In this document: one piece after another, positions 3,234 to 6,698 of the stretch
Layout: each line of letters starts with the position of its first letter
Numbering within the stretch: the first letter of the stretch is position 1
NCBI RefSeq assembly: GCF_009017415.1
Contig: NC_092408.1
Coordinates: forward strand, 992,001-1,056,000
Origin: Aspergillus flavus
Lineage: Eukaryota; Ascomycota; Eurotiomycetes; Eurotiales; Aspergillaceae
Reading direction: 5' to 3'
DNA: 64,000 bases
Notes under the pieces: model-generated
What the model saw: the letters and a program-made list of their open reading frames with translations, nothing else
What the model was told of the DNA's origin: nothing
Databases searched by the model: none
Translations under genes and position numbers: made by a program

Positions 3234-6200
3234 ATGACGAACGTTCCGGAAAAGTGCCAGGTGCTCGTCATCGGTGGTGGGCCAGCTGGCTCCTATTCTG
3301 CATCGGCTCTTGCGCGGGAGGGAATCGATGTGGTCCTCCTTGAGGCAGAGAAGTTTCCTAGGTGAGTTTCCGGCGCTTTGAGGGGGTGGATAAATCAACT
3401 CTTGATATTTCCCGTATTCTTACACATGCACTAGATACCACATCGGTGAAAGCATGCTCCCGTCAATGCGACACTTTCTCAAGTTTATTGACGCCTACGA
3501 CAAGTGGGATGCCCATGGTTTTAATGTAAAGGTGAGTAGTAAAAGCCCATAACCTTTTTGCTAGCTGTATAAGGACACTGGTCGCTGACACCTCGAGCAG
3601 AACGGAGGTGCCTTTCGTCTCAACTGGTCCAGGCCTGAAACATGTAAGTCTCCAGCAGTTATTCAATAGAGCCCGATGTAATTGCGATGCATGTGAGTAC
3701 GCCTAACTTCTTTTAGATACGGATTTCATCGCAGCGGGTGGACCAGGAGGCTATGCCTGGAATGTGATCAGATCCGAGGCAGATGAGCTGCTCTTCAAGC
3801 ATGCAGCCGAATGTGGCGTGAAGACATTTGACGATACCAAGGTGGCATCAATCGAGTTTGCCCCATCTGAAGACGCGAATCCCTTGGGCCGTCCCGTATC
3901 TGCTACTTGGACTCGCAAGGACGGGACTTCTGGCACTCTTGCCATGGATTATATCGTGGATGCATCGGGTAGAAATGGTCTTATCAGCACCAAGTATCTC
4001 AAGAATCGGACCTTCAACAAGGGGCTGAGGAACGTTGCCAGTTGGGGTTACTGGAAGGGAGGTGGTGTTCACGGTGTCGGCACACACAAAGAGGGTGCTC
4101 CCTATTTCGAAGCACTCAAAGGTACGACTCAACTGGGTGTTTCATACTGCCTTCAGAGAGGAAATCATGCTAACTCGAGTCTTCATAACTCAACAGATGC
4201 GAGTGGATGGGTATGGTTTATCCCTCTGCACAACGGCACCCACTCAGTAGGTGTTGTTCAGAACCAAGAAATGGCGACCGAGAAGAAGCGCAAAATGGCC
4301 GAACCTTCCTCCAAGGGCTTCTACCTGGAGTCTCTGGAGTTTGTTCCCGGCATTAAGGAATTGCTTTCCAACGCGGAGCTCATATCGGAAGTCAAGTCGG
4401 CTTCTGATTGGTCATACAGTGCCTCCAATTATGCCTTCCCGGGTGTGCGCATTGCTGGAGATGCTGGATCCTTCATTGACCCATTCTTCTCTTCTGGTGT
4501 GCACTTGGCTCTGTCGGGAGGTCTGTCCGCAGCAACCACTATTGCAGCGGCTATCCGCGGTGACTGCGATGAGACTGTTGCGGCGTCGTGGCACGACAAG
4601 AAGACTTCCGAAAGCTACACACGGTTCCTGTTGGTCGTGTCTAGTGCATTGAAGCAGATCCGGTCTCAAGACGAGCCCGTAATCAGTGATTTTGATGAGC
4701 AAAGCTTTGAAAGAGCGTTTGATTTGTTCAGACCCAGTAAGTTCATTTCATATGATGATCGAACAGTGAAGTCAATGATTCTAACCGCATGATCTAGTTA
4801 TCCAAGGACAGGCTGATGCCGACGCAAAGGGAAAGCTGACCCAAGCTGAAATGTCCAAGACGGTCGAGTTCTGTTTCAGGGCATTTGCGCATGTCTCGTT
4901 TGAAGAGAAAGAGGCTCTCGTGCAGAAGCTGAAGTCACTCGGCCACGATGCAGATGCTAACGATGAGGCCAACCGCAAGGCTCTCGACGAACTCGAGAAG
5001 CATCTGACACCAGAGGAGCAGGCAATCCTAAAGACCCTGAAGGGACGACGCATGGTCCGCCCCGAGGATTCGCTCAACATTGACAATTTCACCCTTGACT
5101 CTATCGACGGCCTCGCTCCGCGTTTGGAGAGGGGAAACCTCGGATTGTCCCCAGCGAAGAAAGCCGAGGTCAAATACACAACCCATGATGCGCTGTCTTT
5201 CCTCAACGGCGAAGCAAGAGCGGCCAAGAAGACGCTTTCAAATGGCGAATCCCAAACCAATGGAAACCACTTGTGCAAAGACCACGACCAGACGAATGGT
5301 CATACCGCAATTAACGGCCATATCGAGAACAATAGCCAGGGAGACACTAATGGACATACGGAGGCCAATGGCCACAGCCAAACAAATGGTCATTCCAATG
5401 GCCATGCCCACACAAATGGAAGCCACACGACCAACGCCCATGATGAATTAAATGGACACAACAATGTCGAGGTGCGCTCCGTCAAAAGCTGCATGGCAGA
5501 CCTCATTGCAGCCGAGAAGATTTCTTCCCAGACTTCAATCGAAGAAGGCACTAGGCACCGTTTGATCTCGTCACTGCACCAATCGGCGGAGGACTTAGAG
5601 ACTCCTTTCGACACTGTGGTGCGATTAGTTGATGCGGTAAGCTAAAATAAAATCAATTCCGGGCTTGGATGCATCACGTTATGTATACTAATGAAGCTCT
5701 CAAAATAGGGTCGACAGACAGCAATGGTTTGCATAGGCGGGGACCTTGGAATCTTCAAGTCCCTCGTGGAGAGCAAAAGACCGTTGTCAGCCGAAGAGCT
5801 TGCCAAGGCTACTATGGCGGACCCACTGCTCGTCGCTCGCATCATGCGATACATGGTCGCCAGTCGTCTGGTCGGAGAGACAGGACCTGACCAGTACGTG
5901 GCCAGCAAGAAGACGTACGTCTTTGCCGACCCACGCATTGAGCATCCCATCCGGTTTTTCCATGCGTTCAGCAATCCTGCCTTCCATGCTTTGCCCGAAT
6001 TCTTAAAGGAGACTGGATATCAAAATGAACCCAAGGGCAGTGCGTTTCAAAAGGCTCTCAACACGGATCTGGAGCCCTATCCCTGGCTTAAGCAGCATCC
6101 GGATGTGTTGAAGAACTTTCAGGCTGCCATGCGGCTGACCAGAGACGCCAATGGTGTGGATATGATGCCTCTCGATCAGTCTGTCAGCATTGGACATGAC

Positions 6201-6698
6201 GGTGCCATGTTTGTAGACATTGGTGGCAACACTGGCCATCAGGCTGCTGAAGTGCTGTCCAAGTACCCGGAGCTCGCTGGCCGAGTGATCGTTCAGGACC
6301 GTGGTGAAGTCATCAAATGTGCCCCCGATATCAAAGGCATTCAGTGGATGGAGCACGACTTCTTTCAAACCCAGCCCGTGAAAGGTGCCAAGTATTACTA
6401 TCTGCGAGCTATTCTTCACAACTGGGACGACAAGAACACGGTGCAGATTCTCTCCAACATTGTGCCCGCCATGTCAGCGGATTCCCTGGTGGCGATTGAT
6501 GAAGTGGTTGTGCCAGAGGAGAATGCTCATGTATGGCCGGCCGGGCTCGATCTTCAAATGTATTCTTTATTCAGTACAACGGAACGGACGGCGTCGCAGT
6601 GGGATGCCATCCTGGACAAAGCAGGGCTACGTGCTGTGGCGGTTAAGAAGTATGCGCCGGTTATGCAAAGCTCGGTCATCTTTGCGGCTGCCAAGTGA
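3234..6698 (+). CDS. Fused flavin-dependent halogenase / O-methyltransferase (AoiQ-type)
   Basis: Six exons (3234-3361, 3435-3531, 3601-3643, 3717-4736, 4798-5636, 5709-6698) join in frame into a 1038-residue protein. The N-terminal part is an FADH2-dependent halogenase: FAD motif GGGPAG at 14-19, GESMLPS at 47-53, candidate catalytic lysine K75 in HGFNVK, and the signature WVWFIP at 254-259. Residues about 577-651 form a hydrophilic linker with seven NGH motifs. The C-terminal part is a class I SAM O-methyltransferase with VDIGGNTGH near 878 and catalytic-His segment LHNWDD (H946). The order matches AoiQ of Aspergillus oryzae, reported to gem-dichlorinate a non-activated carbon of an isocoumarin and to methylate phenols. 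Here it probably chlorinates and methylates the product of the neighbouring PKS. The substrate is inferred only. Confidence 0.92.
5240..5463 (+). repeat. Degenerate repeat encoding the Asn-Gly-His linker
   Basis: Short imperfect units around AATGG(T/C)CA encode seven NGH motifs plus Thr/Gln/Ser spacers within the fusion gene. The stretch is low-complexity and hydrophilic and separates the two catalytic domains, so it reads as a flexible tether. Repeat-number variation between strains would be expected. Confidence 0.7.

Follow-up and report, generated by a model that had tools for sequence, protein, structure and literature searches.

A gene near the start of the window (the whole stretch of 64,000 nucleotides of Aspergillus flavus DNA that was analyzed) encodes a halogenase-methyltransferase fusion enzyme. 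Its sequence and surroundings indicate that it is very probably AoiQ of the dichlorodiaporthin (dia) cluster, or the ortholog of AoiQ in the Aspergillus flavus/oryzae/parasiticus group, AoiQ itself having entered the comparison through published descriptions rather than its sequence. AoiQ of Aspergillus oryzae is reportedly the subject of Chankhamjon 2016 and Liu 2021, and the enzyme, the cluster and the product are already known; we infer that the copy described here is expressed and active.

Identification as AoiQ or its ortholog, beyond a merely AoiQ-like enzyme, is favored by sequence identity together with gene neighborhood. The best match is P0001 from A. parasiticus SU-1, the representative of a 90% cluster with 43 members, which is 96% identical over 100% of the fusion protein. 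The next full-length matches (P0002-P0026, from A. mulundensis, lichen-forming fungi, Monosporascus, Trichoderma and others) show 66-78% identity, and partial models from A. pseudotamarii and A. bertholletiae show 89-90% over 57-68%. No difference from AoiQ was found in the published descriptions through which the two were likened (PMC13301986, PMC9144378, PMC12139152): both have an N-terminal halogenase and a C-terminal methyltransferase and are flanked by NR-PKS, beta-lactamase-like, SDR and zinc-cluster genes, and a review gives AoiQ the same layout with 1014 aa, versus 1013 residues plus the stop codon here (PMC9144378). Dia5 of Trichoderma reesei is likewise an ortholog (the five Trichoderma proteins in the alignment show 73-75% identity), but its reported methylation is confined to the 6-OH (PMC13301986). 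In Penicillium nalgiovense the two activities reside in separate genes, NgvE and NgvF (PMC13301986); the halogenase P0080, which we infer to be NgvE, covers 54% of the query at 68% identity.

Gene structure and domain architecture

Splicing by hand showed the start at 3234 and the stop at 6698 to be correct and yielded exons at 3234-3361, 3435-3531, 3601-3643, 3717-4121, 4197-4736, 4798-5636 and 5709-6698, that is, seven rather than the six proposed in the first-pass annotation. All six introns are GT-AG and 61-75 nt long, and the resulting frame has no internal stop. The earlier proposal that a halogenase and an O-methyltransferase follow each other, in this order, in a single frame is borne out by this open frame and by the Pfam domains of both halves: FAD_binding_3 (7-359) and Trp_halogenase (best stretch 101-372) in the N-terminal part, and Dimerisation (679-745) and Methyltransf_2 (851-991) in the C-terminal part. 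Across the whole genome PF04820 has seven matches, one of which is the fusion gene (27.7 bits); this score alone is not diagnostic, because the same profile is also positive in 5 of 14 control genomes, whereas the RadH match is diagnostic. The methyltransferase half finds LepI as its best PDB match (6ix7, residues 619-1010, E 3.7e-71), along with many O-methyltransferases. Intron 4 (4122-4196, 75 nt) lacks an in-frame stop, and its retention would add 25 residues just before the WVWFIP motif.

Table 1. Location of the fusion gene, its parts and the neighboring genes, in window positions
Feature	Position	Strand	Basis
NR-PKS, 5' part (DiaA/PkgA type, SAT-KS-AT-PT-ACP, no TE)	1..791	-	spliced 1890-aa model, identical to P0229
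Metallo-beta-lactamase-type thioesterase candidate (DiaB/PkgB type), 2 exons, 359 aa	1567..2807	-	PF00753, THWHKDH motif
AoiQ-type bifunctional gene	3234..6698	+	spliced open frame, 7 exons, 1013 aa; Pfam; P0001 96% identity
Flavin-dependent halogenase half, residues 1-521	3234..5147	+	RadH 8gu0 aligned to residues 3-522, E 1.7e-165
Linker, residues 522-654, Asn/Gly/His-rich, predicted disordered	5148..5546	+	NG/NGH counts; pLDDT of ortholog P0001
O-methyltransferase half, residues 655-1013, split by intron 5637-5708	5547..6698	+	PF08100 + PF00891; LepI 6ix7 aligned to 619-1010
Intron 6, 72 nt, GTAAGC...TACTAAT...AG, within methyltransferase dimerisation domain	5637..5708	+	retention gives in-frame stop
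GMC oxidoreductase	7171..8896	-	PF00732 + PF05199
Short-chain dehydrogenase (DiaC type)	10345..11339	+	PF00106 in first exon
Zn2Cys6 regulator (DiaR1 candidate)	11694..12707	-	PF00172, weak PF08493; zinc-cluster motif 12576-12659
PCMH-type FAD oxidoreductase (DiaD/Dia4 candidate)	14277..15852	-	PF01565

Conservation of the active-site residues

The halogenase half contains GGGPAG (14-19), K75 and WVWFIP (229-234), in agreement with the first-pass reading of a flavin halogenase with these last two features. The radicicol-type halogenase RadH (8gu0), which we take to be an enzyme of aromatic chlorination, aligns with the whole of this half, the lysine being kept, with K75 opposite Lys74 of RadH; it differs in being a stand-alone protein with WCWTIP in place of WVWFIP. 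The methyltransferase half keeps its SAM motif, with VDIGGNTGH from residue 853, and carries LHNWDD with H921, D948/E949 and E976. By analogy with their families, K75, H921, D948/E949 and E976 are taken to be the catalytic residues.

These positions were followed through an alignment of 42 fused proteins, comprising the fusion protein and 41 others with both halves present, chosen from 120 listed of 647 matches; with 41 further proteins of this kind, the layout is not a rare one. K75 corresponds to lysine in 40 of the 42 and to a gap in two, WxWxIP is complete in 41, H921 is histidine in 40, D948 and E949 are kept in all 42, and E976 in 41. The gaps at the catalytic lysine occur in the lichen-fungus homologs P0010 and P0019, where an exon was perhaps missed in the gene model. 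The distant fused homologs P0036 and P0044 have lost the methyltransferase catalytic histidine (Gln and Asn, respectively), and P0044 was aligned in spite of lacking a methyltransferase domain in the precomputed Pfam list.

The similarity to LepI, presumably a pericyclase, raised the question of a comparable role for the C-terminal half. We rejected this role: LepI has Arg-Asp where the fusion protein keeps His921-Asn922 of the O-methyltransferase motif, and the C-terminal half accordingly has the appearance of a genuine methyltransferase, not of a pericyclase.

The linker and the integrity of the fusion

The Asn-Gly-His-rich tether noted in the first-pass annotation is evident from 11 NG and 7 NGH in residues 523-640, and it is predicted to be disordered in P0001, whose AlphaFold2 model has pLDDT below 50 over residues 526-632. 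In the same model the methyltransferase half lies mostly near 90, and the halogenase half is moderate with several stretches below 50; with this moderate half, a mean pLDDT of 67.8 and a pTM of 0.43 (39 sequences), no firm conclusion on the relative placement of the halves can be drawn from the model. The segment may be pictured as a flexible tether. The fusion protein differs from P0001 at 5 of 521 halogenase positions, 23 of 133 linker positions (plus one gap) and 8 of 359 methyltransferase positions, a linker divergence as would be expected for a tether under weak constraint. At least 4 NG are found in the linkers of 36 of the 41 other fused proteins, the exceptions being P0021 (3), P0049 and P0068 (2 each), P0044 (1) and P0067 (0). 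Origin of the NGH linker by tandem-repeat expansion was rejected, Tandem Repeats Finder having returned no rows for a tandem array in positions 4700-6000 at a minimum score of 30.

Several database entries would suggest instead that the region makes two proteins, the halogenase terminating no later than the last intron and the methyltransferase initiating within or beyond this intron. For A. nidulans there are separate entries, ANIA_10884 (647 aa, P0033) and ANIA_10889 (337 aa, P0123), and the same kind of split is seen for A. similis (P0038, P0125) and for A. bertholletiae (P0035, P0131); P0030, P0032, P0033, P0034, P0038 and P0121 read into intron 6, whose retention in the window leads to a stop after two codons. 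Against this stand the splicing signals of that intron (GT...TACTAAT...AG) and the 41 other proteins that contain both halves. Moreover, a split would cut the methyltransferase: the LepI match starts within 619-653, the Dimerisation domain crosses the junction at 684/685, and a helix (673-695) spans this junction in the AlphaFold2 model of P0001. We therefore rejected the two-gene model and regard two separate proteins as very unlikely. In all, seven database models from Aspergillus either terminate at the last intron or the preceding linker or read this region wrongly; P0121 rejoins exon 7 after 12 extra residues, and P0035 breaks off earlier, in the linker. The split models are taken as annotation errors because intron 6 lies inside the dimerisation domain and because PMC13301986 gives A. 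nidulans one bifunctional gene, P. nalgiovense being the sole species listed with separate genes. Intron-6 retention in Aspergilli could still yield a halogenase-only splice form alongside the predicted fusion protein.

Genomic context and the dia cluster

The fusion gene lies beside an NR-PKS gene and a metallo-beta-lactamase gene, as the first-pass annotation had it, and both could be modeled. The NR-PKS is mostly outside the window, with its first 791 bases inside and its end approximately 5.3 kb upstream of the window start, at about C5:986720. Its domain order is SAT-KS-AT-PT(PS-DH)-ACP with the ACP last, and the domain search gave no TE match in the 1890-aa model. This model equals P0229 in every residue; P0229 probably being the gene model from this very genome, the match confirms the splicing and not orthology. 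Eight Aspergillus PKSs (P0230-P0237) are 77-91% identical to it, and a further relative at 71% identity, P0245, is named pkgA by its source. In the PKS homologs P0254, P0277, P0280 and P0283 a metallo-beta-lactamase domain precedes the SAT domain at the N-terminus, the same order as in the two neighboring genes here; the release enzyme may be genuinely fused in cis in these proteins, or else separate genes were joined in the gene models.

By domain content, which is no proof of orthology, the neighboring PKS, beta-lactamase-like protein, SDR, zinc-cluster protein and PCMH-type FAD oxidoreductase match the dia gene table of PMC13301986, where Dia4 of T. reesei has a PCMH-type FAD-binding domain. 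The GMC oxidoreductase inside the cluster has no counterpart in that table. A run of 26 G (8613-8638) falls apparently in the intron of this GMC gene, and a second GMC gene is situated at 49118-50494. An ORF at 16843-17811 on the minus strand has a strong AflR regulatory domain (81 bits) and no zinc-cluster motif, the single pattern scanned over positions 1-20000 having matched only at 12576-12659.

In A. oryzae, DiaB is reported to be AO090701000529 (PMC12139152), and a table in PMC4073137 gives AO090701000530 as a PKS, with AFLA_060020 as its A. flavus NRRL3357 partner. That the DNA comes from A. oryzae RIB40 is weakly disfavored by the amylase genes: the fungal amylase domain PF09260 has at least 2 loci in the genome, and 41 bases is the best DNA match between them, whereas RIB40 carries near-identical amylase copies. 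By eye, 21 of the 41 fused relatives are apparently paired with a PKS match of the same genome, which is no proof of adjacency, and in 6 of these pairings the locus tags of fusion and PKS are one or two apart.

An NR-PKS accompanied by a metallo-beta-lactamase is found in several product classes. Together with the extra GMC oxidoreductase between the fusion gene and the SDR gene, this would speak for a related but different pathway, in which the substrate of the fused enzyme is a different one, possibly of the anthraquinone type. Such a pathway is hardly credible, given that every gene class of the dia table is present, that the 96% identical copy belongs to A. parasiticus, from which dichlorodiaportin and its O-methyl form are reported (PMC12346705), and that isocoumarin release is reported for DiaA/DiaB (PMC13301986). 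The first-pass annotation had linked the NR-PKS and metallo-beta-lactamase partnership to anthraquinone-type products, which is at odds with the dehydrocitreoisocoumarin reported for DiaA (NR-PKS) and DiaB (beta-lactamase-like) (PMC13301986). Its expectation of a new substrate or chlorination pattern likewise finds no support in a neighborhood that is the dia cluster or in the 96% identity with P0001, and both ideas were rejected.

Proposed pathway

Flavin halogenases in general generate HOCl and deliver the chlorine through a lysine. The chemistry proposed for the AoiQ-type fusion is taken from the published AoiQ/dia work, and the gene structure, domains, motifs, ortholog and cluster make-up were computed here. 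The NR-PKS and the metallo-beta-lactamase, in the roles presumed for these neighbors, would provide dehydrocitreoisocoumarin as the 1,3-diketone isocoumarin precursor. HOCl would then come from the FAD half, and K75 would direct two chlorinations of the acidic carbon flanked by the ketones, after which water may cleave the terminal acyl group to leave a CHCl2 end. The methyltransferase half would methylate the 6-OH, and in A. oryzae the 8-OH too; O-8 methylation is reported for the A. oryzae AoiQ, unlike the enzymes of P. nalgiovense, A. nidulans and T. harzianum (PMC13301986). The SDR would reduce the side-chain ketone, and a further oxidation to diaporthinic acid may fall to the PCMH-type FAD enzyme, following the proposal for T. 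reesei, whose main product is reported to be this compound and not dichlorodiaporthin (PMC13301986). By analogy, we conclude that the fusion enzyme would combine gem-dichlorination of a 1,3-diketone isocoumarin precursor with phenol methylation. The roles given to the beta-lactamase and SDR neighbors are less sure, because deletion of the beta-lactamase gene dia2 or the SDR gene dia3 is reported to leave chlorinated products in T. reesei, making both dispensable in vivo (PMC13301986).

Dichlorodiaportin has been reported in mycelium of A. flavus NRRL 3251 (PMC6971017) and in isolates of A. flavus/oryzae and A. parasiticus, the latter species alone yielding the O-methyl form (PMC12346705). In one study the PKS transcript stood at 0.1 RPKM in A. 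flavus NRRL3357, 2.9 in AF70 and 4.7 in RIB40 (PMC4073137), and the low value in NRRL3357 suggests that the cluster may be near-silent. The PKS is also among the backbone genes with an mRNA change, possibly in either direction, in a wetA deletion (PMC5489174).

Evolution of the fusion

In a quick maximum-likelihood tree of 76 halogenase domains (42 fused and 34 stand-alone, hand-picked from the listed matches) fused and stand-alone forms are interleaved, such that accounting for the fused state takes 5 changes (no fewer than 4 by the starred branches), and a single clade of fused halogenases is rejected (p-AU 5.1e-58). A second quick tree, built from 70 methyltransferase domains (42 fused and 28 stand-alone of 111 matches), places the 42 fused rows and 5 stand-alone ones, four from Penicillium and one from Umbilicaria, in one group with a support of 100; a clade of the fused methyltransferases alone is weakly rejected (p-AU 0.029, with 7 long-branch rows dropped). 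Both trees have long branches, those of the fused rows P0036, P0044 and P0049 among them. The trees do not decide between one old fusion with later splits and repeated fusions of neighboring genes, being consistent with both. The methyltransferase halves of 15 of the 41 aligned fused homologs, all outside the AoiQ clade, show an identity of only 40-46%.

As a further member of the AoiQ family the gene adds little, the enzyme, cluster and product all having been published. Its by-products are the seven-exon gene model and a warning that in several Aspergillus entries AoiQ is divided or cut short, at intron 6 or upstream of it. It is possible, if somewhat short of probable, that the tether is evolutionarily labile, with one ancient fusion broken several times or re-made from neighboring genes, that the halogenase-only form mentioned above arises from intron-6 retention in Aspergilli, and that the 15 fused proteins outside the AoiQ clade may chlorinate other polyketides. 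With methyltransferase halves so distant, these homologs are candidates for other substrates.
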